Source of the DNA: Cytophagaceae bacterium
GTDB taxonomy: Bacteria; Bacteroidota; Bacteroidia; Cytophagales; Spirosomataceae
Direction of reading: 5' to 3'
Length of the DNA: 64,000 nt
Assembly (NCBI GenBank): GCA_027488335.1
Contig: JAIYBU010000050.1
Location: 1 to 64,000 of the forward strand
Shown here: one piece after another, positions 42,338-60,120 of the stretch
Numbering within the stretch: the stretch's first letter is position 1
Layout: each line of letters begins with the position of its first letter
The notes under the pieces: generated by a model
Seen by the model: the letters and a program-made list of their open reading frames with translations, nothing else
Told to the model about the DNA's origin: nothing
Database searches by the model: none
Made by a program: the position numbers and the translations under genes

Positions 42338-43807
42338 TTATTCCGTCCACCAAAGTTTGGTTTTCATATTATCCGCCCCATTAATCTTAATTCCTTCGTC
42401 AAGTTTTGCTTTATTCAACGAATATTCAGTAGTTGGATACGGCAAACGAGTTGGTACAATACCATCATTTTCAAATACCGCTCTGGCATCACGTGGAGAG
42501 AATTTTGGAAAACCCGTGCGACGGAATTCTGTCCAAGCCTCAACGCCTTGTCCGAAAAGAGCTATCCATTTTTGTTCGATGATTTTTTCTTTAGAAATAG
42601 TCCCAACTGTAGTCAAATAATTAGCTGGAGTATTAATACCAAATTGCGTAAATGAAGCATCAATGCCTTTTTTGAAATAATCGTCGGCTTTACCAATGGT
42701 GATGTCTCCGTCAAACGCAGCTTCGGCCAAAATGAAATTCAATTCGCTGAAAGTCATAATTACACTCGGAGCATTGGCCTTTGTGAAGTAATCAGTCAAC
42801 ACCGAAGCTGAACTCAAATACGTAGTAGCGATTGCATCAGGCAAACCATTTGGAATACCTTCGTAGGCTCCTGCTTTATTTTTGGTTGCAAAAACACCCA
42901 AACGAGTATCGCCCAAATCCGTTAATTTATCAACTACTGTTTTGCTGATACTCCAGTCAGTACGGCTACCCACAATCATTACCTCATTCCACTCGTTATT
43001 GCTTGGGCGAGAAGTTGTATTGGCCAAAAGTGCGTTATCGGCATTGCTCGTAAAAATCGGATATTTGGCAGCATCCGAAAGGATTTCGTTCATGATTGCC
43101 TTAGATTCAGCCGATTTCTTAGCTGCCTGACGATTCGCCAAACGTAAACGAAGTGAATTGGCAAATTTCTTCCATTTCAAAATATCGCCACCATAAATAA
43201 TATCACCCGAAATAGCTGGCCCACCAACGGTCAATTTTTCGTTGGCAAGTTTCAAATCGGCCAAGATTCCTGCGTAAACTTTATCCATTGAGTCGTAAGC
43301 AGGTGTATAAATGGGTTTTTCAGCCGTTCCTTTGATAGATTCTGTGTAAGGAATTGCACCGTATAAATCTGTCAAGAGTGAGAATGTCCACGAACGCATT
43401 ACCAGAGCAGCACCTTCGTAATTTTTATTCGGACTTTTACCTGTCTCACCTGATTCCGTGATGATTCTCTGGAAATTCAATAAACCATCATTATAAAGCG
43501 ATTTCCAAGTATTGTTATAAAACGTTGGCGTTATACCGTAGTTATCGCCCTCGTTTGAGTAAATATTACGGGCTAAATATTGCACCCAGAGCATAGCACC
43601 GTCAAGGTTTAAACGCTCAAAACGAACATTGCCACCCCAATATCTATCAACTGCTTTTTCGGTAGCATACGGAAACAAATATTGAGCTCCGATAGCCGTT
43701 GGGTTATTGGGGTCGGTATTCATTTCATCGAAATCTTTCGTACAAGAACTAACCGATGAAAGCAAACCAACAAATGCGAATGAATATATAATCTTATTGA
43801 GTTTCAT
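42338..43807 (-). CDS. SusD/RagB family outer-membrane lipoprotein
   Basis: A 489-residue SusD-like_2 protein with lipobox SSVSSC. Conserved segments include DFDEMNTDPNNPTAIG, LTDLYGAIPYTESIKG, LKWKKFANSLRLRLANRQA, ELNFILAEAAFDGDI and EAWTEFRRTGFPKF. It should form the lid of the SusC barrel encoded upstream. The gap between the two is 102 bases and holds a nested hairpin. ATG at 43807 is chosen as it begins the signal peptide (MKLNKIIYSFAFVGLL). Its sequence resembles the first SusD of the window in type, but they are clearly different proteins. Confidence 0.92.
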   Translation of the reverse strand: MKLNKIIYSFAFVGLLSSVSSCTKDFDEMNTDPNNPTAIGAQYLFPYATEKAVDRYWGGNVRFERLNLDGAMLWVQYLARNIYSNEGDNYGITPTFYNNTWKSLYNDGLLNFQRIITESGETGKSPNKNYEGAALVMRSWTFSLLTDLYGAIPYTESIKGTAEKPIYTPAYDSMDKVYAGILADLKLANEKLTVGGPAISGDIIYGGDILKWKKFANSLRLRLANRQAAKKSAESKAIMNEILSDAAKYPIFTSNADNALLANTTSRPSNNEWNEVMIVGSRTDWSISKTVVDKLTDLGDTRLGVFATKNKAGAYEGIPNGLPDAIATTYLSSASVLTDYFTKANAPSVIMTFSELNFILAEAAFDGDITIGKADDYFKKGIDASFTQFGINTPANYLTTVGTISKEKIIEQKWIALFGQGVEAWTEFRRTGFPKFSPRDARAVFENDGIVPTRLPYPTTEYSLNKAKLDEGIKINGADNMKTKLWWTE

Positions 43808-43843
43808 ATCTGTCAAAATTTTAGGTAGATAATAAAGTTGTTG

Positions 43844-43902
43844 GCGATTAGCTTTTAGCTTAATTATTTCCTCTAAAAAGCTAAAGATTAATTGCTAATC
43901 GC
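43844..43902. repeat. nested stem-loop between susC and susD
   Basis: An outer 9-bp stem (GCGATTAGC / GCTAATCGC) encloses an inner 8-bp stem (TTTAGCTT / AAGCTAAA). It lies between the susC stop and the susD start within one operon. Confidence 0.6.
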
Positions 43903-43909
43903 TTTTCAC

Positions 43910-46900
43910 TTAAAAACTAATCGAAAGGTTTGCACCTACACTTCTTGAATTTGGTAATTCGCCATAAGCAAAACCTTGTTGGTTAGCACCGAAACGGTCA
44001 ACCTCTGGGTCGATGTGTGGCGTATTTTTGAATAAAATAGCTAAATTTCTACCTACAATCGAAAGTTTTGCATTCTGTAAGTGTAGTTTCGATAAAACCG
44101 ATTTAGGAATAGTATATCCAAATGAAACTTCACGTAATTTGACAAAAGAAGCATCGAAAATAGCCGCCTCATGGTAACGACGAGGGTTGTTATAACCAAT
44201 CAATTGGTTGGTTGCCACAATCACGTCGTTTGGTACATACTGAGGGTTTTCGGTAGTTCCGATATTCATTACCCCTTTTCCGATGATACCTTCTTCACGA
44301 CCAACGGCTGTTTCGGCATATTGGCCTGTCCAACGAGCAGTACCCGTACCTTCGTCGAAAATATCTCCGCCAATTTTGGCATCAATCAAAGCTGTTAATG
44401 TAAATTTCTTGTAAGTGAAAGTATTCGAGATACCACCCATCCAATCTGGTTGGATATTACCCAAAATTCTTGGAGTAGTTTCTACTACTGGCAAGCCATT
44501 GGCGTAAACAATTTGTCCGTCAGGAGCGTGTTTGAAACCAATACCAAACAACGAACCGTAAGGCATTCCTACTTGGGCAATTGAAGTCAAACCTCTACGC
44601 TCTTGGAGTGTGTAGGTTGTCAGACCTTCGGCCAAAGCGATTACTTTATTGCGATTACGAGAATAATTCACAGCCACATCCCACTTGAAAGCATTGGCTT
44701 CCATTACTTTTCCTGAGAGCATAATCTCGATGCCTTGATTCGTGATTTGACCTGCGTTTAAGATACGTTTGTCGTAGCCACTGGCTTTCGAGATTTCTAC
44801 TCCAAGAATTTGGTTTTTGGTTGATTGGTTATAGTAAGTGAAGTCTAATCCGAAGCGATTTTTCAAGAATTTCAAGTCTAAACCTAATTCAATACCCGTT
44901 GTAATTTCAGGTTTCAGAGTAGCGTTTGAAATTGTTAAATTTTCATAATAGGCTGGTAATGTGCTATTCCACGAACCACCTGCACGGAAAGTTTGTGCTA
45001 ATTGATACGGGTCGGCATCGTTTCCTACTTGAGCCCAGCTTGCTCTAACTTTTCCGTAAGAAAGAATCGTTTTAGGGAAATTTATTAAATCTGTAACAAC
45101 GCCGCTCAATGAAACTGAAGGATAAAAATACGAACGAGCATTGGATGGAAGCGTACTCGACCAGTCATTACGTGCTGTTGCATCTAAAAACAAAGCATTC
45201 AAATAACCTAATTGTACTGAGCCATACACACTTTGTACTTCGGCTTTTTCGATACGGCTATCAATGGTATTTTGGCTTGGATTTGAGTTTGCCAAGTTAT
45301 AAACGCCATCTACAACTAACTCGGCTACATTAGCAAAATTACGTTTGTAATAATTGCTTCTTTGAGCGGCACCAGCCGAAGCTACCAAATGAAAATCTTT
45401 GGTAATTGATTTTTCGTAAGATAACAAGGCATCATGATTGGTTTCTTGGCGACGTAAAACCTCTTCTGAATAACGGCCTGGTGTACGGTTTCCGTTACGA
45501 ACTCTATCGAAATTAACGATATTGATGCGAGTATCAGACCACATATCCGTACCGCTTCTAATCATCAATTTCAATTCTGGCGAAATCGTAAAGTTTAAGG
45601 CAATATTTCCAACTAAACGGTCTTTATCATTGGTGTAAGGTAGTTTTTCACTTGTATAAAACGGATTCGTAAAGAATGTATGTTGCCAGTTAGCAGGGTC
45701 ATTGTCAGGTAATTTTCCTGCAACTGCTCGTTGAATATGCACATCGGCATAATCGGCATAATTGGCAAGTTGGTCCCACGAAACGTGGCGATGCGACCAG
45801 ATAAATTGGTCACCATTTTGGTACGTACGATTTCCACCCGATTTCACGTATTCGCCCGCAACTACAGCCGAAATGAATTTTGAAACCTTATAATTTGAGT
45901 TGATTTTGAAGTTATTTCTATAGAAATCATTAAAAGCCATCAAACCTTTTTGGTCGAGACGACCCACGCTCAATCGGAAACTTCCTTTGTCGTTTCCACC
46001 CGAAAGAGCTAAATTATTGGTTAAAGTTGTACCCGTTTGCCAGTATTCGTCCCAGTTATTGGGTTGTGGCGTAAGCGGAGCAACATCTTTTCCTGTAAAC
46101 CATTGTCTTACTAAGCGACCATCCATTGGGGCTCCCCAACTTTCGTCCGTACCTTCAGTACCAGTGGTAGAACCTGGCTTAACCGACCCGTAAGCTGCTT
46201 TGTATTGGTCATACGCATCAGGCGTAATTACCCCACTCCATCCATCCGAATACCATGTTGTATAACCTGAGCCACCACCATAAGTATTTTGAAAGTTTGG
46301 TTTAACCAATGGGCGTTCGGCCGTAAAGTTTGAGTTATATTCAATACCTAAACCCTTTGTGCCAGCACCGTCTTTGGTTGTAATCAAGATTACACCATTG
46401 GCAGCACGAGAACCATAAAGAGCAGCGGCGTTTGGTCCTTTCAACACCGAAATATCTTTAATGTTATCAGGGCTAACTTCTGAGATACCACCCCCGAATT
46501 GTTTGTCGAATTGTTGTTGAATCGGCACGCCATCCACTACGATAAGTGGCTGATTATTGCCCGAAACCGATGAAGCACCACGAATCTGAATAGTTGAGCC
46601 ACTTCCTGGGCCACCGTTGGCAGCGATACGAACACCCGCCATTTTACCAGCAAGCCCGTTAGCAATATTATTTGAGCGAGCCTCGACCAAGCTTTCACCT
46701 TTAAGTTCTTGTTGCGAATAGCCGAGCGATTTTTTCTCTCTCGAAATACCCAAAGCCGTTACCACAACTTCATTTAAAGTCTTTGTATCGGGCTGTAATA
46801 TAATATCAAACGTAGTTTTATTGTCAATTTTAATGTCGATAGTAACATATCCGATGGCACTAAACGTAAGCATACTACCACTTGCAGGGACTTTCAACGA

Positions 46901-47074
46901 AAATTTCCCATTGGCATCCGTGACCGTTCCAAATGAAGTTCCTTTTACAGTAACCGAAGTTCCAGGCAAAACGCCCTCGCTTTCAGAGCCAACAACTCCC
47001 GTGATGACCTTGTCTTGTGCCATTATCGCCGACGATAACAGCAAGCAAACTAATAAGTAGAAATTCTTCATCAT
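43910..47074 (-). CDS. SusC/RagA family TonB-dependent outer-membrane transporter
   Basis: A 1054-residue protein. The signal peptide MMKNFYLLVCLLLSSAIMAQ is followed by a carboxypeptidase-regulatory-like domain (about 22-100), TLNEVVVTALGIS, a TonB plug (about 110-235, ending ALYGSRAANGVILITTK) and a beta-barrel ending LSISF. ATG at 47074 or 47071 begins the signal peptide; a longer frame starting at 47122 would add a charged N-terminus without sense. SusD, a lipoprotein and a Tat aminotransferase follow on the same strand. The ligand is unknown; no glycoside hydrolase is nearby. Confidence 0.93.
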   Translation of the reverse strand: MMKNFYLLVCLLLSSAIMAQDKVITGVVGSESEGVLPGTSVTVKGTSFGTVTDANGKFSLKVPASGSMLTFSAIGYVTIDIKIDNKTTFDIILQPDTKTLNEVVVTALGISREKKSLGYSQQELKGESLVEARSNNIANGLAGKMAGVRIAANGGPGSGSTIQIRGASSVSGNNQPLIVVDGVPIQQQFDKQFGGGISEVSPDNIKDISVLKGPNAAALYGSRAANGVILITTKDGAGTKGLGIEYNSNFTAERPLVKPNFQNTYGGGSGYTTWYSDGWSGVITPDAYDQYKAAYGSVKPGSTTGTEGTDESWGAPMDGRLVRQWFTGKDVAPLTPQPNNWDEYWQTGTTLTNNLALSGGNDKGSFRLSVGRLDQKGLMAFNDFYRNNFKINSNYKVSKFISAVVAGEYVKSGGNRTYQNGDQFIWSHRHVSWDQLANYADYADVHIQRAVAGKLPDNDPANWQHTFFTNPFYTSEKLPYTNDKDRLVGNIALNFTISPELKLMIRSGTDMWSDTRINIVNFDRVRNGNRTPGRYSEEVLRRQETNHDALLSYEKSITKDFHLVASAGAAQRSNYYKRNFANVAELVVDGVYNLANSNPSQNTIDSRIEKAEVQSVYGSVQLGYLNALFLDATARNDWSSTLPSNARSYFYPSVSLSGVVTDLINFPKTILSYGKVRASWAQVGNDADPYQLAQTFRAGGSWNSTLPAYYENLTISNATLKPEITTGIELGLDLKFLKNRFGLDFTYYNQSTKNQILGVEISKASGYDKRILNAGQITNQGIEIMLSGKVMEANAFKWDVAVNYSRNRNKVIALAEGLTTYTLQERRGLTSIAQVGMPYGSLFGIGFKHAPDGQIVYANGLPVVETTPRILGNIQPDWMGGISNTFTYKKFTLTALIDAKIGGDIFDEGTGTARWTGQYAETAVGREEGIIGKGVMNIGTTENPQYVPNDVIVATNQLIGYNNPRRYHEAAIFDASFVKLREVSFGYTIPKSVLSKLHLQNAKLSIVGRNLAILFKNTPHIDPEVDRFGANQQGFAYGELPNSRSVGANLSISF

Positions 47075-47120
47075 AAATTCTTGGTTTAAGTTAGTTTGTT
47101 GTTCCCTTTTCAGCCGAATC

Positions 47121-47152
47121 ATTACGAGACTCCGACCGCTCGGTTTCGTAAT
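47121..47152 (-). promoter_or_regulatory. hairpin in the likely 5' leader of the second susC
   Basis: ATTACGA pairs with TCGTAAT and inside it CCGA pairs with TCGG. It lies about 50 bases upstream of the susC start and could be a leader structure. Confidence 0.4.
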
Positions 47153-47782: not shown

Positions 47783-47817
47783 AAAGCACCCAAACTTTGT
47801 TGTCTGAGTGCTTTTTT
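47783..47817. terminator. terminator downstream of the 47875-49509 gene
   Basis: AAAGCAC and GTGCTTT form a stem, with an A-rich flank on the left (U-tract for leftward transcription) and T-run on the right. It follows the leftward gene ending at 47875. Confidence 0.7.
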
Positions 47818-47874: not shown

Positions 47875-49509
47875 TCAAATCACGTTAGCATCAAAAACAC
47901 CCGTCAAGATTTTGTCTTCTCGCTTTACTTGTAGCCAAATACGGTAATGCCCAGCCTTCGGGAAAACATACGGAAAAGTAACCTGTCCGCCATGATGTCC
48001 GTTGGCCTCGTGTAGCATATTTCCCATCAATAATTTATCTCGTTCGGCTTCACTCATTGATTGAAGATTGGCCAATACATTATCAACACTATCTCGAAAT
48101 TTCTTTGCATTAGTTAAGTTCGGACGTTTATTACTTGTCTCGTCGATACGTTTTTGCAAAACCTGCACAGCCGTTGACGAGTACGTGCCATTAGGATGCA
48201 AATGAATATACACACTTGCATCGTCTTTAATAACGGCAGCATGGCCCATCATACCCAAATACGTTTGCAAGTTGGCAGGTTTACCATCGGGTGCAAGCAC
48301 CGAGAATTTCAAATTATAAACTTTCCCAGCCATGAGTTTCTGGTTTGGTTTTTCTTCCCAAATAATGCTTGAACCATCTTGTAGCTTGGTTTTTACCCCT
48401 GGCGTCCCACAAATCGTGATGCTTTCATCAACTACCGAATTGGCAGTTTTATTAAGGGCATTTGTCACCACAAACGTATCATCAGAGTCACCCGTAAGCG
48501 TTGGCATTACATTTACTTTAGGTGTTTGCGGAATCTCCACCGTATCAGCAATCGTATTTTGCAAGCTATGATAACGCAACACATCGGCAAAAATCAAGTA
48601 CTTTCCTGCAGGCATATTGGGTAGCGGAGCCTCAAACGTAAGCGTATCTTTGCGAGAAGGGTGCAAATGAGCAAACACTTCCATTGAACCTTCTTTTACC
48701 AGAAACATGTGCATCAACTTCCCGTGGTCAGGAATAATAAAACTTAATGAACGTCCATTGACCGAGGCCGAATCTATCTTGAAATTCAAGATTCGCTGCC
48801 CATTTCTCAAACTAATACTCGATGTAGCGGTGTAAGGCCGATAGATATTTCGCTGATAATCAGCCGTTTCGGCATTCCACCACATATTTCCACCAAACAA
48901 AAGCAATCCACAAAATGAGGCCCCAATCGTTGAGCCAACGATACGTCGCTTTTTGGTTGAATTGTTTTCAGACTCTCCTACTTTCAGTAAACTATCGCCC
49001 GTACTTGCACCAATAATCGTAGTCATAATTCCAACCAAAAGCAAAGCCAAACCTGCCAAAATCCAACCCAACGAACTCGGCAGTTGGCGTTGAGCTGTGG
49101 AAAGGGCTGCAATCGGAACTAACACCTCACCTTTTCCTCTTGCTCCTTCAATGATAATTTTTACACTGGCCGCTCCATTTTCCATAAGCCAAATTTTACC
49201 TTCGTATTTACCCGCTTCTGTCATCATGCCCTCGTCAGAACGCGGCGAACCTTCATCACCAGTCCAATAATAAATCGGACTCATTTTTACACTTTTTATA
49301 TCGATTCCATCAACCATCACCGACACTTTGGCCGTTCCTGGAATCACATCGGGTGGCTCAACATATACTTGTACGCTATAATTTCCAGCTTTTCCTTCAT
49401 GCACAACGCCTGCACTGCCGATGTGAGCAAATAATCGCCCCCCCGCCCCTAAAGGGGAACTAAGGAGAAGGATTAAAATGTATTTTAAAAAAATATTTAG
49501 TTTTTTCAT
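47875..49509 (-). CDS. membrane protein with two YtkA-like His motifs, possibly copper related
   Basis: A 544-residue envelope protein with a signal peptide, a periplasmic domain (about 30-140), a helix at about 147-168, a second at about 190-208, and a large C-terminal periplasmic part. Two similar His motifs stand out: DHGKLMHMFLV...EVFAHLHP (His262, His267, His281, His283) and LGMMGHAAVI...VYIHLHPNG. The latter is the pattern of YtkA-like and copper-handling proteins (GxMGHxxxx...HxHP). The signal peptide is partly encoded by a G-rich dispersed repeat. It follows a polytopic protein gene by 42 bases, likely one operon. The metal role is inference from motifs. Confidence 0.65.
   Translation of the reverse strand: MKKLNIFLKYILILLLSSPLGAGGRLFAHIGSAGVVHEGKAGNYSVQVYVEPPDVIPGTAKVSVMVDGIDIKSVKMSPIYYWTGDEGSPRSDEGMMTEAGKYEGKIWLMENGAASVKIIIEGARGKGEVLVPIAALSTAQRQLPSSLGWILAGLALLLVGIMTTIIGASTGDSLLKVGESENNSTKKRRIVGSTIGASFCGLLLFGGNMWWNAETADYQRNIYRPYTATSSISLRNGQRILNFKIDSASVNGRSLSFIIPDHGKLMHMFLVKEGSMEVFAHLHPSRKDTLTFEAPLPNMPAGKYLIFADVLRYHSLQNTIADTVEIPQTPKVNVMPTLTGDSDDTFVVTNALNKTANSVVDESITICGTPGVKTKLQDGSSIIWEEKPNQKLMAGKVYNLKFSVLAPDGKPANLQTYLGMMGHAAVIKDDASVYIHLHPNGTYSSTAVQVLQKRIDETSNKRPNLTNAKKFRDSVDNVLANLQSMSEAERDKLLMGNMLHEANGHHGGQVTFPYVFPKAGHYRIWLQVKREDKILTGVFDANVI
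49436..49461. repeat. G-rich dispersed palindrome, copy B, inside a coding sequence
   Basis: The plus strand reads CCCC, GCCCCTAAAGGGG, AACT. It covers codons about 17-25 of the gene above, giving SSPLGAGGR in its signal peptide. It is nearly identical to copy A. Confidence 0.65.
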
Positions 49510-49535
49510 TGATTTACGTTTTACTGTTGTTGAAA

Positions 49536-49556
49536 AGCTCCCCTCGGGGGGCTATC
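49536..49556. repeat. G-rich dispersed palindrome, variant copy C
   Basis: AGCTCCCCTCGGGGGGCT lies in the spacer between the two genes and supplies the stop codon of the upstream gene. It belongs to the same pattern (AGYTCCCCTnnnGGGG) as copies A, B and D. Confidence 0.5.
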
Positions 49557-50775
49557 TCTGCACTTGTTTCATCCAATTACCCCAAGCAAGACCAATACGT
49601 GTCGATAAAAAACTAAGAACAAATGAAAGCGAAATACCTACTAACCATTCATTCAATGATTTATTACTCCAAGGGCCAAACTTAAAGCGATATTCCCAGT
49701 CGGCATCGTTCTGAAACGACCAAGAGTTACTACCAAAAAACCAATTTCGAGCCAATGGCGATTCGTGCAAAAATGTACCAAACGGATAATGTGTGAGTAA
49801 TAAAACAAGCGTATAAGCTCCGCCCAAAATGAATGCTAAAGTCCAATCGTTTTTAGTCGAAAACCTATCTCGTAACCAATCGGTGACAAACGCTGGAATA
49901 AATAAAAGCAGCGGAAAGCCGAGTGTTTGATAGGTACTGATTTTATTATGAATAGGCCCTAACAGAGGTTCGGCAGGCAAAAGCCTCAGCGTGGCATTAA
50001 CAGCCCAGTGGAAAATCAAAAATATGATACATATATAGGTAGTTCCCCATTTTTTGTTTGAAGCTCGACCCGCTGCAAATAAGATAAATGGAAATGCTCC
50101 ACTCGCAACTTCATAAAACGATGGCTCGTGCATAGCCCAACGTCCCAACGATTCCGAAAGAAATGTAAAAATAGAAGTGATTAGAAAAGCTGCTGTAAAA
50201 ATAAACATCCATTGCAAACGATTCGTACGTTTAGTATTTTCTTCGGCCGAAAGCGAGCTTATTTTTTCGCTTCTATTCAGAAATGCTAAAACGGCAATCA
50301 TAGCTCCCATTTGTACGCTCATTAACCCCAAGAGCAAAACTGTATGTGGTGGAGAAAGAATCTGCACGTCAAGCCCATAGGTATTGTGCCACCAATCATC
50401 AAAAGGTGCAGAGGTAAGCGAAGCGATTCCGCCCCAAATACAGAAAAGTCCACCCAATGAACTGTAAAAAATACCCCAAAACTTTACCATTTTGCCTTTT
50501 TCGAGTTGATTTCCCCAAAACGAAGTTTTCAAAACCTGATAACCCGAAAAAATACCTGCGACTGCCGCTCCAATGTACGTTACTACGTGCGGGGCTGAAA
50601 AAAGCCCATCGCGGCCGATGCTCATGTGCCAAGCAATATCCCATAAGATTCCGAGAATCACGCACATAGAAGCAATCACGCTCACATATACATAGAGCGG
50701 AATAGCCAATAAGATTTTTGAAAATAAAGAAACCTCTTTTTCGGCTGTAATAGACTGATTAATAGTCGTTTCCAT
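49552..50775 (-). CDS. polytopic membrane protein with duplicated D-WH-G-D-S-PH motif, unknown function
   Basis: A 407-residue protein with about 9-10 membrane helices. Two copies of one motif are visible: Asp46-Trp49-His50-Gly54-Asp56-Ser60-Pro62-His63, and Asp126-Trp129-His130-Gly134-Asp136-Ser141-Pro143-His144. Each stands between helices, so two His/Asp sets could form a metal or haem site. More His lie in the C-terminal half (MHEPSF, LTHYPFGTFLHES). No named family was recognised. It is followed by the YtkA-motif protein, probably in one operon, which supports a metal or respiratory role without proving it. Confidence 0.6.
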   Translation of the reverse strand: METTINQSITAEKEVSLFSKILLAIPLYVYVSVIASMCVILGILWDIAWHMSIGRDGLFSAPHVVTYIGAAVAGIFSGYQVLKTSFWGNQLEKGKMVKFWGIFYSSLGGLFCIWGGIASLTSAPFDDWWHNTYGLDVQILSPPHTVLLLGLMSVQMGAMIAVLAFLNRSEKISSLSAEENTKRTNRLQWMFIFTAAFLITSIFTFLSESLGRWAMHEPSFYEVASGAFPFILFAAGRASNKKWGTTYICIIFLIFHWAVNATLRLLPAEPLLGPIHNKISTYQTLGFPLLLFIPAFVTDWLRDRFSTKNDWTLAFILGGAYTLVLLLTHYPFGTFLHESPLARNWFFGSNSWSFQNDADWEYRFKFGPWSNKSLNEWLVGISLSFVLSFLSTRIGLAWGNWMKQVQR

Positions 50776-54084: not shown

Positions 54085-55974
54085 ATGAACAATACCTATT
54101 ATATCATAGATTTCGATAGCACTTTTACGAAAGTAGAAGGCCTTGACGAATTAGCCAATATTGCATTGGCAGGAAGTGCCAATCAAGAAAAAGTAGTTGC
54201 TCAAATTAGAAGTCTGACCGAGCAGGGCATGAATGGAGAAATTACTTTTTCGGAAGCACTCAGTCGCCGAATCGAATTATTGAAGGCTAATCGTTCGCAT
54301 ATCAGTCAATTAGTTGATTTTCTTCATACACAAGTTTCGGAGTCGTTCCAACGCAATGAAAAATTCTTGCGTGAATTTGCCGACCATATCTTAATTGTTT
54401 CAGGCGGTTTCAAAGAATTCATTGTGCCAATCGTAACGTCGATGGGCTTGAAAGAAGAAAACGTATATGCCAATACTTTCGTTTTTGATGCCGAAGATAA
54501 TATCATTGGTGTTGACCAAGAGAATGTTTTGGCTCACGAAAAAGGTAAGGTAAAATTGTTAGGTTCTCTAAAGCTCGATGGCGATGTTTATGCCATCGGC
54601 GATGGCTATACCGACTACGAACTTCGTGCTTCGGGGCTGGCCAATCGTTTTTATGCGTTTACCGAAAACGTTGAGCGTGAGAAAGTTACCTCAAAAGCCG
54701 ACCATATTGTGCCGTCGCTCGATGAATTTTTATATCTGAATAAACTACCTCGCAGTCAGTCATATCCAAAAAGCCGTATCAAGGTACTTTTACTCGAAAA
54801 CGTTCACTCAGTGGCTATCGAGGCATTCAAACGTGAAGGTTTTGATGTAGAAACGCATAAAGGTGCAATGGATGAGGATGAATTATCAGAGAAAATCAAA
54901 GGAGTTTCGATTTTAGGACTTCGTTCAAAAACTAATTTGACGAAAAAAGTCCTCGAAAATGCCGATAAACTCATCACAGTGGGTGCATTTTGTATCGGAA
55001 CTAACCAAATCGACCTTAAAACGTGTACTGAAAAAGGTATCGCAGTTTTCAATGCACCTTATAGCAATACCCGCTCTGTTGTAGAATTAGCCATTGGCGA
55101 AATGATTTTGTTGATTCGTAATGTGTTTACGAAAAGCAATCAAATGCACGCTGGTAAATGGGATAAATCTGCCAATAATAGTTTCGAGGTTCGTGGCAAA
55201 AAATTGGGTTTGATTGGTTACGGACACATCGGAACGCAGCTTTCGGTTATCGGTGAAGCCCTCGGTATGGAGGTTTATTTCTACGATATTGTCGATAAAA
55301 TGCCTATTGGAAATGCCAAGAAATGCCGCTCTTTAGAAGAAGTTCTGAGAGTTTCAGATGTGGTAAGTATGCACATTGATGGTCGTAAAGAAAATACCAA
55401 TGTGTTTGGCAAACGTGAGTTTGAAATGATGAAAGATGGCGTGATTTTTATGAATCTCGCTCGTGGACACGTGGTCGAAGTACCAGCATTGGTAGAAGCC
55501 ATCAAATCGGGCAAAGTTGCAGGTGCGGGTGTTGACGTATTTCCGTACGAACCAAAAACCAACAGCGAACCATTTGAGAACGAATTGCGTGGTTTACCAA
55601 ATGTAATCCTTACACCACACATCGGCGGTAGCACCGAAGAAGCTCAAGAAGGCATCGGACTTTACGTACCTGAGCGTTTGCTCGAATATATGAATAATGG
55701 TAGCACAACGGGTAGCGTGAACTTCCCAGAAGTACAATTACCATTGTTGCGTGATTCGCACCGTTTGTTGCATATTCACCAAAACGTACCAGGAATTTTG
55801 GCTAAAATCAATAATATTTTTGCGAAGCACCACATCAATATCATTGGTCAGTACCTAAAAACCAACGAAACAATTGGCTACGTGATTATGGATATTAGCA
55901 AGGGTTATACCAACGAATTTATCCAAGAAATCAAAGACATCGACGAAACGATTCGTTTCAGAATGTTGTATTAA
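54085..55974 (+). CDS. serA: phosphoserine phosphatase-like / D-3-phosphoglycerate dehydrogenase fusion
   Basis: A 629-residue fusion. Residues 1-225 form a HAD-family phosphatase of the SerB type: DFDST (Asp9, Asp11), LIVSGGFKEFI, and IGDGYTDYEL. Residues about 232-629 form 3-phosphoglycerate dehydrogenase: KVLLLENVHSVAI, GAFCIGTNQIDL, NTRSVVELAIGEM, LGLIGYGHIG (NAD site), MNLARGHVVE, GAGVDVFPYEP and LTPHIGGSTEEAQ (catalytic His), with an ACT-type domain at the end (HQNVPGILAKINNIFAKHHINI). It thus holds the first and last steps of serine synthesis in one chain. It is complete in both parts by motif. No serC is nearby. Confidence 0.9.
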   Translation: MNNTYYIIDFDSTFTKVEGLDELANIALAGSANQEKVVAQIRSLTEQGMNGEITFSEALSRRIELLKANRSHISQLVDFLHTQVSESFQRNEKFLREFADHILIVSGGFKEFIVPIVTSMGLKEENVYANTFVFDAEDNIIGVDQENVLAHEKGKVKLLGSLKLDGDVYAIGDGYTDYELRASGLANRFYAFTENVEREKVTSKADHIVPSLDEFLYLNKLPRSQSYPKSRIKVLLLENVHSVAIEAFKREGFDVETHKGAMDEDELSEKIKGVSILGLRSKTNLTKKVLENADKLITVGAFCIGTNQIDLKTCTEKGIAVFNAPYSNTRSVVELAIGEMILLIRNVFTKSNQMHAGKWDKSANNSFEVRGKKLGLIGYGHIGTQLSVIGEALGMEVYFYDIVDKMPIGNAKKCRSLEEVLRVSDVVSMHIDGRKENTNVFGKREFEMMKDGVIFMNLARGHVVEVPALVEAIKSGKVAGAGVDVFPYEPKTNSEPFENELRGLPNVILTPHIGGSTEEAQEGIGLYVPERLLEYMNNGSTTGSVNFPEVQLPLLRDSHRLLHIHQNVPGILAKINNIFAKHHINIIGQYLKTNETIGYVIMDISKGYTNEFIQEIKDIDETIRFRMLY

Positions 55975-56043: not shown

Positions 56044-57348
56044 TTACCAAAACTTCACTCCCGATAGTCTACTGATTTCGAGTTTGGCTAAAAGTGCCTG
56101 ATAATCGTATTGTAATAAATTGAATTTTGCTTCTTCTAAACCTGTCTCGGCTGCTTGAATTTCGAGCGGCGTGCTTACACCATTCTCCAATCGTTTTTTT
56201 GCCAGTTTCAAGCTATATTCAGCTTGATAAATATTACTTGCCGCCAATTCTTTTTTCTGATTCGCTACTTTTATATCGTTATAGGCATTTTCAAGGTCAC
56301 GACTAATCTGTACTTTCTGCGACTCAGTACTTTGCTTCGCTGCATCAAGATTAATTTTAGCAATTTGGGTATTGTATGCTCCACGTTTTCCTGTATAAAT
56401 CGGAATAGATAATTTCACACCAATCAATGAGTTGGGTCTCAGCACCGAAATATCAGGCAAATAACCATTACGTACACCAAGCGAAGCATTGGCAGCTAAA
56501 GTTGGTAAACTGCTCATACTCGAAATTTTTACTTCTTGAGCCAAAACACTCTCTTTTGTAAGCAAACCTTTCAAGTCAACATTATTCTGAATTGCCTCAT
56601 TATAAGCATTTTGTAAATCAGTTTTTCCATAACCAAATTGCAATTCGGCATTTGCTGGAATTAGTTTTCTGGCATCAGAACCAATCAACGAACTCAAGAA
56701 AATAAATTGTCTTTCGAGTTGGCCTTGTAGGTCAATTACTCTCATTTCGGCATTTTTGTAGCGTACTTGTACCTGCACAGCATCATAATCAAGGGCATCA
56801 CCACTTTTTATGCGGTCGGCTATGATTTTACCATTTTCCTGCACCAATTTTACTTGGTCTTGCTGCACAACAATGGCTTTTTGCAAGTAAATAATGCTAT
56901 AATATAATTGTGAAACTTGATAAGCCAATGTATGTTTCAGCGTTTCGACTCCGCCCGTCTGTTGTTGGATTTCGAGAACCGTTTTCTTTACACCTTCTTT
57001 AAATCTTCCCCAGTCATAAATCACATACGATGCACTTACACCAACATTATAATTATTGTGCGGCTGAAACTGAATCACTCGTGGCTCGCCATTAACAGGC
57101 AACGTTGCCTTTGCAATTGGGTCAACCCTTGAGTAGCTTACATCGCCACTCACCTGCGGTTTAAGGCCCGTTTCTTGAACTTTTATGCGATAGTCGCCCG
57201 TACTGAGTAATTGCTGTTGCTCTTTTACTCTTGGCGAATATTCGAGGGCTTGATTAATGAGTTTAGAAAGTACTTGTTCGCTACTCTGAGCAAGCACTTC
57301 GTTCCCTAAAAACAAGCAAACAATGATTAATAACTTATTGATTTTCAT
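56044..57348 (-). CDS. TolC family outer-membrane efflux protein
   Basis: About 434 residues with a signal peptide ending EVLAQ. The TolC pattern is present: two related halves with long helices (YQVSQLYYSIIYLQKAIVVQQDQVKLVQENG; LKLAKKRLENGVSTPLEIQAAETGLEEAKFNL) and beta strands (VSGDVSYSRVDP, NVGVSASYVIYDW). It forms the outer-membrane channel of the efflux system encoded upstream. It is the last gene of a leftward operon hlyD-MFS-tolC, and ends at a bidirectional terminator. ATG at 57348 begins the signal peptide; the upstream frame to 57405 is unlikely. Confidence 0.9.
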   Translation of the reverse strand: MKINKLLIIVCLFLGNEVLAQSSEQVLSKLINQALEYSPRVKEQQQLLSTGDYRIKVQETGLKPQVSGDVSYSRVDPIAKATLPVNGEPRVIQFQPHNNYNVGVSASYVIYDWGRFKEGVKKTVLEIQQQTGGVETLKHTLAYQVSQLYYSIIYLQKAIVVQQDQVKLVQENGKIIADRIKSGDALDYDAVQVQVRYKNAEMRVIDLQGQLERQFIFLSSLIGSDARKLIPANAELQFGYGKTDLQNAYNEAIQNNVDLKGLLTKESVLAQEVKISSMSSLPTLAANASLGVRNGYLPDISVLRPNSLIGVKLSIPIYTGKRGAYNTQIAKINLDAAKQSTESQKVQISRDLENAYNDIKVANQKKELAASNIYQAEYSLKLAKKRLENGVSTPLEIQAAETGLEEAKFNLLQYDYQALLAKLEISRLSGVKFW

Positions 57349-57420
57349 TTTTTTAGTTTCGATATTTAAGGTATAGACTTGAGATAAAACACTCATAATC
57401 AGCACCTAAATTGATAATTA

Positions 57421-59022
57421 TTAATGCGATTCAGCGGCAGCTTTAGCGGCAGCAGCAATTTCTTGGGGCGACTTTTTCTTTGTTTTTAATAGTACCACCA
57501 ATGGCAGAACGCACAAGAAAAATATAGCCACAATTCTGAAAGTATCTAAATATGCCAAATAATACGATTGTCGGTCGAGCATCAACTCCAACTGCCGATA
57601 CGCTTGGGTTGAAGCCTGTGATATATCGCCCGAACGAGATAAAAATCCCATCTTGATAGCATTGAATTTTTCGAGAAACAGCGGATTATTGGGCGTATAA
57701 TTTGCCACCAAGTCAGAGCGGTGTTGAGCATATTGAATAGCCACGTAGTTATTAGCCAATGCAATACCAAATGCTCCTCCAAGCTGACGAATCATGTTGG
57801 TCAACGAAATACCCGACCCAAACTCGTTTGGTTTCAAACCAGCCACCGAAGCATTGATGAGCGGTAATTGTAGCATAACCGTACCTAAACCACGCAAAAC
57901 CTGTATCGGATAAAAATCCCAACGCCCCATATCAGCAGTGGCAGTTCCGCTATAAAAACCGAAGAAAGCAAAAATCAAGATTCCCGCAATGACAAAAGGA
58001 ATAGGCGATGCACCTGCCGACATTCTTTTACCCAAAATCGGAAAAAGTGGCAAAATCGTGAGCGTCGGGAAGAACAAGGATAAACCTGTTTCGTAAGGCG
58101 TAAAACCATTAATACGCTGCACCATTACTGGATACACAAAAACCGATGTAAACAATCCAACCCCCGAAACAAGCACAAAAATTGAAGAAAAAGCAAAATT
58201 TCGATTGGCAAACACTCGCAAATTTACTACTGGATGGTCAGTATTTAATTCTCGACTGATAAACCCAACGATTCCGAGTGCGGCAATCAAAGCCATCACC
58301 GAAATCTCTTTCGACTGAAACCAGTCTTTCGATTCGCCTTTTTCGAGAATATATTGTAGCGAACCAATTCCAATAATCAATAATATGATTCCGAAATAAT
58401 CAATCTTGATATTGGCTTTATTTTTCCCTTCGCCTTCTTTTCGTGGGATATACAAAATCGTCAGTACGGTAGCGATGATACAAATCGGCACATTGATATA
58501 AAAAATATCTCCCCACGTAAAGTTATCGACAATATATCCGCCCAAACTTGGCCCAAGTGTCGGCCCCAATACAATTCCCATTCCAAAAAGCCCCGAAGCC
58601 ATGCCTCGTTCTTTCCCTGGGAAAGCATCAAACAAAATGGCTTGTGAAGTAGAAAGTAATGCTCCTCCGCCTATTCCTTGAATAAATCTCCAAAAAACCA
58701 ATTCCCACAATGTATCTGAGTTCCCACACAAATAAGATGCAACTCCAAATAATATCATTGATGCCAAATAATAGTTTTTTCGACCAAAATATTCAGCCAA
58801 AAAGCCAGTCATCGGAATCACGATTACGTTGGCAATGGCATACGACGTAATTACCCAAGCTATGTCTTCAATCGTTGCCCCTAACGAACCCGCAATCTGA
58901 TTAAGAGCCACATTGACAATCGTTGTGTCGAGTAGCTCCATCACGGCGGCCGTTACGGTTGTCAGCACGATGATAAAGCGTGCTGCACCAGCGGGCTTGT
59001 GTATATTTTCTGTATTTTCCAT
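57421..59022 (-). CDS. DHA2 family multidrug efflux MFS transporter (EmrB-like)
   Basis: A 533-residue permease with 14 membrane helices. MELLDTTIVNVALNQIAGSLG is the DHA2 first-helix signature, GFLAEYFGRKNYYLASM is motif A, and GMGIVLGPTLGPSLGGYIVDNFTWGDIFYINVP is motif C of drug/H+ antiporters. EmrB partners with an HlyD/EmrA adaptor and TolC to push drugs across both membranes. All three genes are here in one leftward operon with 54- and about 70-base gaps. The substrates are not known. Confidence 0.92.
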   Translation of the reverse strand: MENTENIHKPAGAARFIIVLTTVTAAVMELLDTTIVNVALNQIAGSLGATIEDIAWVITSYAIANVIVIPMTGFLAEYFGRKNYYLASMILFGVASYLCGNSDTLWELVFWRFIQGIGGGALLSTSQAILFDAFPGKERGMASGLFGMGIVLGPTLGPSLGGYIVDNFTWGDIFYINVPICIIATVLTILYIPRKEGEGKNKANIKIDYFGIILLIIGIGSLQYILEKGESKDWFQSKEISVMALIAALGIVGFISRELNTDHPVVNLRVFANRNFAFSSIFVLVSGVGLFTSVFVYPVMVQRINGFTPYETGLSLFFPTLTILPLFPILGKRMSAGASPIPFVIAGILIFAFFGFYSGTATADMGRWDFYPIQVLRGLGTVMLQLPLINASVAGLKPNEFGSGISLTNMIRQLGGAFGIALANNYVAIQYAQHRSDLVANYTPNNPLFLEKFNAIKMGFLSRSGDISQASTQAYRQLELMLDRQSYYLAYLDTFRIVAIFFLCVLPLVVLLKTKKKSPQEIAAAAKAAAESH

Positions 59023-59076
59023 AATATCAACCCTGCAATTTCCCGCAGTTAAGGGTTTATCTTAGAAACCCTTACA

Positions 59077-60120
59077 TTATTTAATCTTCACTTCCACCTC
59101 TAAACTCATGCCTGCACGCAACTTATCACGAAGTTTATCAACACCATCAATGGCAATTTTCACTGGAATTTTCTGCGTTACTTTCACGAAGTTTCCGCTG
59201 GCATTATCGGGTGGAAGAAGAGCATATTTTGCACCTGTGGCATCTGAAAAATCAGCAATTTTTCCTTTCAATTCCATATCAGGAAAGGCATCTAACTTAA
59301 TATTAACTTCTTGACCAACTGCCAAACGACTGATTTGTGTTTCTTTGAAATTGGCTACAACCCAATAAAGCGAATCTTGCACAATTGTGGCCAACGTTTG
59401 CCCTGGTTGAATAAACTGCCCTGGCTCAACACTCTTACGACCAATTTTACCACTTTCTGAAGCGTAAATTTTCGAGTAGGTAAGTTTTAATTTTTGTTGT
59501 TCGATTTTTGCTCGTTGCACCGCCAAGGCTGCTTCGGCTTTGTGTAAATTTGATGTAAGCACATCCACACGAGATTTTGAGGCCGTCCAATCTTGTTTTT
59601 GGCTTTCGTATTGAGCATTCAACACTTCCAAATTAGATTTACTATCATCAACCTGACGCTTCGTAATGGCATTATCGGCAAATAATTTGGCATCACGCTC
59701 GGCATCTTTTTGGGCTTTTTCTTTGCGTAAAGCCGTTGTTTTAAGACCAGATTCGGCCGCACTAATAGTCATGTTAGCATTTTTGATACTTGCTTTGGCA
59801 CTTTCTACATCAGTAAGCATTTGTTGGTACATGGCTTCCATTTCGACCAATGCCAAGCGTTGTTCACTATCATCAATATCAACCAATAATTGCCCTTTCT
59901 TTACTTGCTCAAAATCTTTCATGTTTACGGCATTTACATAACCGCCGACCCTTGGTACAACTGGCACTGTGTACGTTTCGATTTGGGCATTATCAGTGGT
60001 TTCATAGCTTTGGTTGTATTTGTATTTCTGATAAGCATAAGTGGCTGCTCCAATCACAATCAATAAAAGTATGATGCGTGGAATGTAGTTTTTAAACGAT
60101 TTCTTAGAAGTATTTTCCAT
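59077..60120 (-). CDS. HlyD family periplasmic adaptor (EmrA-like)
   Basis: A 347-residue membrane fusion protein. One N-terminal helix (about 12-28) anchors it. VPVVPRVGGYVNAVNMKDFEQVKKGQLLVDID is the lipoyl-type beta domain, followed by a long coiled coil (about 75-205), then KIYASESGKIGRKSVEPGQFIQPGQTLATIV and the beta-barrel (WVVANFKETQISRLAVGQEVNIKLDAFPDMELKGKI). It links the MFS pump to TolC. It is the first gene of the operon, divergent from marR with shared regulatory DNA. Confidence 0.92.
   Translation of the reverse strand: MENTSKKSFKNYIPRIILLLIVIGAATYAYQKYKYNQSYETTDNAQIETYTVPVVPRVGGYVNAVNMKDFEQVKKGQLLVDIDDSEQRLALVEMEAMYQQMLTDVESAKASIKNANMTISAAESGLKTTALRKEKAQKDAERDAKLFADNAITKRQVDDSKSNLEVLNAQYESQKQDWTASKSRVDVLTSNLHKAEAALAVQRAKIEQQKLKLTYSKIYASESGKIGRKSVEPGQFIQPGQTLATIVQDSLYWVVANFKETQISRLAVGQEVNIKLDAFPDMELKGKIADFSDATGAKYALLPPDNASGNFVKVTQKIPVKIAIDGVDKLRDKLRAGMSLEVEVKIK

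Follow-up and report, generated by a model that had tools for sequence, protein, structure and literature searches.

We analyzed a 64,000-nucleotide stretch of contig JAIYBU010000050.1 from a Cytophagaceae bacterium (hereafter, the window), in which two adjacent genes on the minus strand, separated by a 42-bp gap, encode a polytopic membrane protein, here called B, followed by a partner with a signal peptide, here called A. B carries the ligand patterns of two copper sites of PmoC, a subunit of particulate methane monooxygenase (pMMO), and in its anatomy the pair works like a copper membrane monooxygenase (CuMMO) and is a variant new to that kind. We give somewhat better than even chances to a fuller reading, in which B and A assemble into a copper-binding complex of the inner membrane on the CuMMO plan and carry out an O2-dependent oxidation. 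B would combine a PmoC-like core with a PmoA-like domain, A would be the PmoB-like subunit, and the order C-A-B of pmoCAB would be kept in two genes. A would supply copper by way of the HLHP domains and the N-terminal His of its mature form, and the paired sites of B would hold it at the periplasmic ends of the first four helices, where it would perform the O2-dependent oxidation of a substrate. Among these steps, the oxygenase step is the least certain.

In PmoC, CuC is bound by Asp156, His160 and His173, with Arg165 and Phe177 nearby (PMC12576850), and CuD by Asn227, His231 and His245 (PMC12576850; PMC11194816 agrees), with Phe177, Phe240 and Phe248 around it (PMC11194816). Site 1 of B reads D46-IAW-H50-MSIGRDGLFSAP-H63 and site 2 reads D126-DWW-H130-NTYGLDVQILSPP-H144. 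Their ligand spacings equal those of CuC and CuD, respectively, and R55 of B stands at the position of Arg165. An earlier note on this DNA, made from the letters alone, had reported a D/H motif occurring twice in the polytopic protein, and both motifs were indeed present in all 82 B open reading frames (ORFs) from the window and 80 named loci, the latter being the best 80 of 380 GTDB contig stretches that encode a B relative (81 loci with the window added). Among 1,120 non-B ORFs of the same loci, the first motif was found in 4, the second in 6 and both in none. In an alignment of 62 B rows chosen from these loci, D46, W49, H50, G54, D56 and H63 of site 1 and D126, W129, H130, G134, D136 and H144 of site 2 were invariant.

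Comparison with 28 dereplicated PmoC sequences extended the likeness to other residues around the ligands. At site 1, all 82 B and all 28 PmoC sequences share the Asp, a Trp at +3, the first His, an Arg at +9, an Asp at +10, the second His and an aromatic residue at +21, which is Tyr in B and Phe in PmoC. At site 2, both sets share the two His, a Pro at +16 and an acid at +10 (Asp in B, Glu in PmoC), and a Trp at +2 occurs in 82/82 B and 24/28 PmoC. The distance between the sites is 80 residues in B versus 71-73 in PmoC, and all 28 PmoC likewise have both sites successively in one chain. The internal duplication that had been proposed from the sequence is, in the case of B, more fittingly seen as the pair of distinct sites that PmoC has. 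In the model of B, the Asp and first His lie near the end of a helix (residues 27-52 and 107-133), and the third ligand lies near the start of the next one (61-87 and 142-168); model confidence of the two site blocks, including the loops between, is 77 for site 1 and 64 for site 2. The suggestion of paired metal sites on the periplasmic side is supported for the pairing, and the metal is probably copper, given the CuC/CuD spacing, the AmoC/PmoC matches and the copper genes in four of seven actinobacterial regions, both described below; the periplasmic side is read from sequence only. Haem, also raised as a ligand, was dropped, since no result supports it.

Sequence comparison shows the N-terminal part of B to be a remote homolog of AmoC/PmoC. 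Using hhalign, the family of B N-terminal parts together with actinobacterial relatives aligned with PmoC at a score of 38.9 (P 3.5e-5, probability 72%), with site 1 (D46-H50-H63) in register over 25 columns, and site 2 came into register as well when a global alignment was forced. Decoys scored far lower, with a maximum of 22.7 (mean 13.2, standard deviation 2.5) for 200 column-shuffled PmoC profiles and 10.8 for the reversed profile, and the B family without actinobacterial rows still reached 36.2. As a motif pattern had been used to fetch 20 of the 28 PmoC sequences, the test was rerun on the eight plasmid PmoC only, giving 39.1 against a decoy maximum of 19.9. All nine comparison sequences that were checked (seven C, one A and one B) are members of PF04896, PF02461 and PF04744. 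A 16-row profile covering B residues 25-175 in the window row and distant relatives was also searched against all 177,635 distinct sequences of the PDB. The top three ranks were AmoC (E 0.02, 0.033 and 0.07), and nine of the eleven matches at E<=10 were AmoC or PmoC, the remaining two being complex I subunits. PDB sequence searches with the single B sequence, or with a profile without actinobacterial rows, found nothing. Because the E-values are modest and these latter searches were empty, we speak of remote homology and not of family membership.

For the second half of B (residues 172-407), the model predicts a PmoA/AmoA-like fold, and we regard this match as credible. Its best match in the fold comparison was 7ev9_B (Z 13.2, root-mean-square deviation 4.0, 197 aligned of 220 residues), and the first 13 rows were all chains of pMMO or ammonia monooxygenase (AMO), twelve of them at Z 12.2-13.2 and one at 8.3, with the first unrelated row at Z 8.2. 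Helical models can reach Z of about 13 by arrangement alone with this tool; the match is credible because of the gap to the next rows and because the PmoC signal immediately precedes this half within one polypeptide. In the PDB sequence search, chain C of 7s4l, 6cxh, 3rfr and 9leg was named subunit C, so the chains matched by B in these entries are not subunit C, and we take them to be the A subunit. A search of a viral library with the B model returned nothing useful. These results bear on convergence, that is, on B being an unrelated membrane protein whose His motifs resemble the PmoC sites by chance. Such a view can draw on the lack of any match over a curated cut-off, on a best PDB E-value of only 0.02 and on the fact that middling Z-scores are common for helical folds. 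We consider it very improbable, as the PDB-wide top matches are AmoC, the decoys score far below the real comparison, and the PmoA-like fold is an independent line of evidence.

Protein A is predicted to consist of a beta domain (residues ~30-138), two helices and further beta domains that carry the HLHP motifs. The two H...HLHP sets described in the earlier note were borne out, with their His residues and P439 invariant in an alignment of 57 A rows (Table 1) and P284 conserved at >=90%; two H-x-H-P motifs were present in 76 of 77 A ORFs and one in the other. The label of YtkA type that the earlier note gave to HLHP proved weak. The YtkA family PF13115 was reached by 4 of 57 A proteins, with E 0.00094 at best, and CopC (PF04234) by 3 of 57, with E 0.037 at best; both stayed below the cut-off, and A of the window matched neither at E<=1.

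In each of the 77 A ORFs, the invariant His29 directly follows an Ala, Ser or Gly (Ala 66, Ser 4 and Gly 3 in 73 of them; Ala 3 and Gly 1 in the other four, which a first pattern had missed, three having an upstream start in ORF calling and one, L047, a slightly different sequence), and position -3 is occupied by A, S, T, L, V or G. Signal peptidase needs residues of this kind before its cleavage point, so mature A probably begins with His29. In PmoB, the CuB ligands are His33, through both its amino terminus and its side chain, together with His137 and His139; CuB is not conserved in every pMMO (PMC12576850). All five PmoB that we fetched have an alanine before HGE, giving a signal-peptidase-like site before the His, as in A. 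Separately, the HxH of CuB reads H-[LVI]-H-P in these same five sequences (L237, L239, L240, L242 and L243), which is like the HLHP of A in another local context; we did not use this as evidence.

A secreted beta domain with a mature N-terminal His next to a polytopic membrane part is also the general layout of anglerases, which pair an N-terminal His domain with a HupE/UreJ_2 permease (PMC12537917). By this analogy, B would be a metal permease and A its metal-capturing partner. We regard this as improbable, because B has a PmoC-related N-terminal part instead and the permease family HupE_UreJ_2 (PF13795) had no match in A or B of the window, in the 25 B members (B and 24 relatives) or in five of the six actinobacterial proteins, nor was it among the 25 of 29 families listed for the A proteins.

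Table 1. Coordinates of the gene pair, its candidate metal-binding residues and the adjoining hairpin in the window.
Feature	Position	Strand	Details
Protein B	49552..50775	-	407 amino acids, polytopic; PmoC-like core (~25-170) and predicted PmoA/AmoA-like fold (172-407); model pLDDT 88.5
Protein A	47875..49509	-	544 amino acids; signal peptide, beta domain, two transmembrane helices, two further beta domains with HLHP; model pLDDT 84.3
Site 1 of B	50587..50640	-	D46-x3-H50-x4-R55-D56-x6-H63; PmoC CuC spacing (Asp156, His160, Arg165, His173)
Site 2 of B	50344..50400	-	D126-x3-H130-x13-H144; PmoC CuD spacing (Asn227, His231, His245), Asp replacing Asn
His29 of A	49423..49425	-	invariant (57/57), immediately past signal-peptidase-like site; candidate first residue of mature A
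Two transmembrane helices of A (residues ~144-222)	48844..49080	-	model helices 145-172 and 183-220
First His set of A (residues 261-284)	48658..48729	-	D261-H262, H267, H281-x-H283; five residues invariant 57/57
Second His set of A (residues 420-439)	48193..48252	-	M420, H423, H436-L-H438-P439; invariant 57/57
Terminator-like hairpin past A	47783..47814	-	13 pairs, T-rich tail; consensus match only

The two genes are closely linked, which answers to the co-occurrence that the earlier note had proposed to survey. A follows B immediately in 76 of the 80 named loci; three of the other four (L036, L088 and L091) stop at a contig edge, and in the fourth (L043) the same genome carries A elsewhere. 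Among 26 loci from genome searches, the window's own included, A stands next to B in 23, and the remaining three comprise two contig ends (L006 and L024) and one locus (L023) with a second B copy next to the first. B is duplicated in tandem in L023/L025, both of genome G014, and in L091; in G014, A comes after the second copy. When the ORFs of the window and the 80 named loci were clustered, the only general clusters were B (81 loci) and A (77 loci), and the third-commonest cluster (34 loci) was found in Dyadobacter and a few related genera.

B occurs in one copy in the host genome and is present in 24 of 58 related genomes, namely 10 of 11 congeneric genomes (own genome counted), 13 of 25 from other genera of the family and 1 of 22 from elsewhere in the order. 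Across the phylum, it was found in 5 of 395 sampled genomes, again counting its own. The titles of the best 80 stretches are mostly Emticicia, Arcicella, Dyadobacter, Runella, Siphonobacter, Fibrella and Spirosoma, and named strains of Dyadobacter, Runella, Spirosoma and Emticicia are among the carriers. Weak matches in two genomes (G477 and G772) were dropped, their translations reading as complex I subunit H. A profile scan of viral contigs turned up no relative. In viral contigs of IMG/VR, at least 120 stretches carry a PmoC/AmoC motif (80 kept, L113-L192), and the five that were scanned are full PF04896 members.

More distant relatives were found on actinobacterial plasmids. A tblastn search of plasmids with B gave matches in Mycolicibacterium and Rubrobacter, and a search with one of these plasmid matches added Leifsonia and Streptomyces. 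All six intact proteins (L233, L234 and L244-L247) have both D-x3-H...H sites and the following membrane part, with a spacing of 14 instead of 12 at site 1 of L233, and such relatives are annotated as hypothetical proteins (e.g., WP_138230750.1, WP_014805643.1, WP_185279132.1 and WP_024126299.1). Each is encoded by one gene of 475-496 amino acids, except that of M. vanbaalenii, which has 616 amino acids and lacks HDPGQG. Five of the six continue past the membrane part with an AxA site and HDPGQG, then with a beta-rich stretch and a final hydrophobic helix, so that, judged by its sequence, the chain reads as a one-chain C-A-B arrangement. Homology of the beta-rich stretch to A was not shown (hhalign P 0.1), and none of the six proteins contains H-x-H-P. 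The Rubrobacter marinus match (L235) lies upstream of the annotated gene with an interrupted frame and is probably a decayed copy. Plasmid pMYCCH.01 of Mycolicibacterium chubuense NBB4 (L239 and L244) carries an ordinary C-A-B monooxygenase operon together with a single-chain B relative.

Annotated copper genes lie within 6-8 kb in four of the seven actinobacterial plasmid regions. These are CopC in L233; a four-helix copper-binding protein, a multicopper oxidase and heavy-metal P-type ATPases in L245; a multicopper oxidase and a cupredoxin in L246; and a cupredoxin and a heavy-metal P-type ATPase in L247. The neighbors of L234 and L244 are ambiguous only (a BlaI/MecI/CopY-family regulator, YHS and CcdA/TlpA), with a heavy-metal ATPase and a multicopper oxidase ~17-23 kb off on the L234 plasmid, and the Rubrobacter region has no annotated copper gene. 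With less confidence, and at somewhat below even chances, we propose a separate, unrecognized branch of the CuMMO superfamily in ordinary heterotrophs. It would comprise a two-gene form (a C-A fusion plus a B-like protein) in Spirosomaceae and a one-gene C-A-B form in Actinobacteria, in which an internal signal-peptidase-like site would free an N-terminal His, and it would be tied to copper homeostasis.

Because copper genes adjoin four of the seven actinobacterial relatives, copper handling on a CuMMO-like scaffold is a live alternative to an oxygenase, and this context weighs against the latter. The complex would then bind, oxidize, store or pass copper across the envelope with no oxygenation of a substrate, the HLHP domains and N-terminal His capturing copper and the paired sites of B holding or moving it. 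Homologs of the C-terminal, HLHP-bearing part of A in Gloeocapsa and M. aubagnense also adjoin a heavy-metal-associated domain protein and a heavy-metal P-type ATPase, and the first domain of A resembles the copper-resistance protein CrdA in fold (Z 10.7, level with a carbohydrate-binding module at 10.8; E 0.16 by sequence). On the other hand, B keeps second-shell residues of PmoC (Arg165, the Trp and the acid at +10) beyond the need of bare copper binding, and no copper gene was recognized among the 25 commonest neighbor clusters of the 81 loci, an outer-membrane efflux gene recurring near the pair in 6. We rate copper handling without oxygenation as possible but rather unlikely.

Several further results weigh against an oxygenase complex on the CuMMO plan. 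At CuD, the first ligand of B is Asp versus Asn in PmoC, with the spacing kept in 82/82 B, and the surrounding Phe177, Phe240 and Phe248 correspond by position to Tyr67, Ile139 and Leu147; some CuMMOs have no D site (PMC9038741). No counterparts of the CuB residues His137 and His139 are conserved in the first domain of A (57 rows), and A had no hhalign or PDB sequence match to PmoB. Foldseek placed 9leg_B at rank 50 for A, beneath many unrelated beta-sandwich chains, and the fold comparison for A had no PmoB among the 50 rows listed (from Foldseek's top 1000). The PmoA-like half of B gave no sequence match in hhalign or the PDB profile search to support the fold, its sole match being a designed protein at E 7.8. 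Foldseek alone gave no match for B at E<=0.001, with pMMO/AMO absent among the 50 rows listed. For B residues 9-170, the fold comparison returned mostly ion channels at Z<=8.2, with TRPML1 the best (up to 8.2); PmoC chains cannot appear in this list, because it has one row per PDB entry. Finally, no substrate pathway was seen among the 25 commonest neighbor clusters of the 81 loci.

The curated families point the same way. The CuMMO models PF04896, PF02461, PF04744 and TIGR03078 had no match to A or B of the window or to the 25 B members, nor were they among the 25 of 29 families listed for the 57 A proteins. PF04896 likewise had no match in the host's own genome, and two actinobacterial relatives reached CuMMO models only at E 0.014-0.094, under the cut-off. 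Pfam and NCBIfam returned no copper family for A and B, and scattered weak Pfam matches in 1-4 of the 25 B members (PF02535 Zip, PF18916 and others) look like chance and were set aside. Since the tests for CuB and for the curated models were negative in the pair, we do not file it as a member of the CuMMO family.

In the window, the hairpin behind A possibly marks the end of a two-gene unit; the window contains 6 terminator-like hairpins versus 3.7 expected by shuffling. The pair is followed directly downstream by genes for a TonB-dependent receptor and a SusD-like protein (42338-47122, minus strand), which read as a separate nutrient-uptake unit, and the upstream flank encodes an O6-methylguanine DNA methyltransferase. 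An efflux set consisting of an outer-membrane efflux protein, an MFS transporter and a HlyD/CusB-type adaptor (56044-60120, minus strand) lies ~5 kb upstream of B. On the plus strand, positions 54085-55974 encode a 629-amino-acid protein in which a HAD-type domain is fused to a D-2-hydroxyacid dehydrogenase plus an ACT domain, an arrangement resembling a SerB-SerA fusion.

pMMO and AMO gate methane and ammonia oxidation. CuD is favored as the chemistry site of pMMO (PMC11194816), CuC has been reported as an earlier candidate, and which copper site acts is debated. A relative that keeps site C exactly, has site D with Asp and is without the CuB His would be a natural experiment and might serve as a model protein. 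Should the pair instead handle copper, it would suggest an origin of the CuMMOs. If a separate CuMMO branch is real, the methane and ammonia monooxygenases would be one offshoot of an older copper-binding membrane machine whose carriers here are ordinary soil and water bacteria.

The earlier note knew of no described system with this layout. It is right that no curated model matches, yet the layout resembles a CuMMO with C and A fused. CuMMOs are described as three genes, usually xmoCAB, in PMC6215863, the text of which contains neither "Bacteroid" nor "fused"; that of PMC12533140 contains neither "Bacteroid", "fused" nor "fusion", and divergent archaeal CuMMOs have been reported (PMC9038741). 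Among the matches listed in the open-access literature, with subscription papers and preprints outside the search, there was no description of the pair or of a fused CuMMO.

Among known systems, the pair is most fully compared with the CuMMOs (pMMO, AMO and HMO; xmoCAB). B shares the CuC ligands and spacing of PmoC, the CuD spacing and several second-shell residues, and has a predicted PmoA-like fold; the gene order is C-A-B, and A, like PmoB, has a probable mature N-terminal His, a beta domain and two helices. The pair differs in the fusion of C and A, in the Asp at CuD, and in an A protein that does not conserve His137/His139 and has an extra HLHP domain, and it fits no curated family. The actinobacterial single-chain proteins share both D-x3-H...H sites and the membrane part of B, whereas they hold everything in one gene without H-x-H-P and lie beside copper genes in four of seven regions. 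With the periplasmic copper proteins YtkA, CrdA and CopC, the pair shares the CrdA-like fold of the first domain of A and the proximity of HLHP-part relatives to heavy-metal ATPases, but A is predicted to be membrane-anchored and to have three domains. The anglerases (Ang-1/Ang-2 with HupE/UreJ_2; PMC12537917) likewise have an N-terminal His after a signal peptide and a beta sandwich joined to a membrane part, whereas B is another kind of membrane protein.

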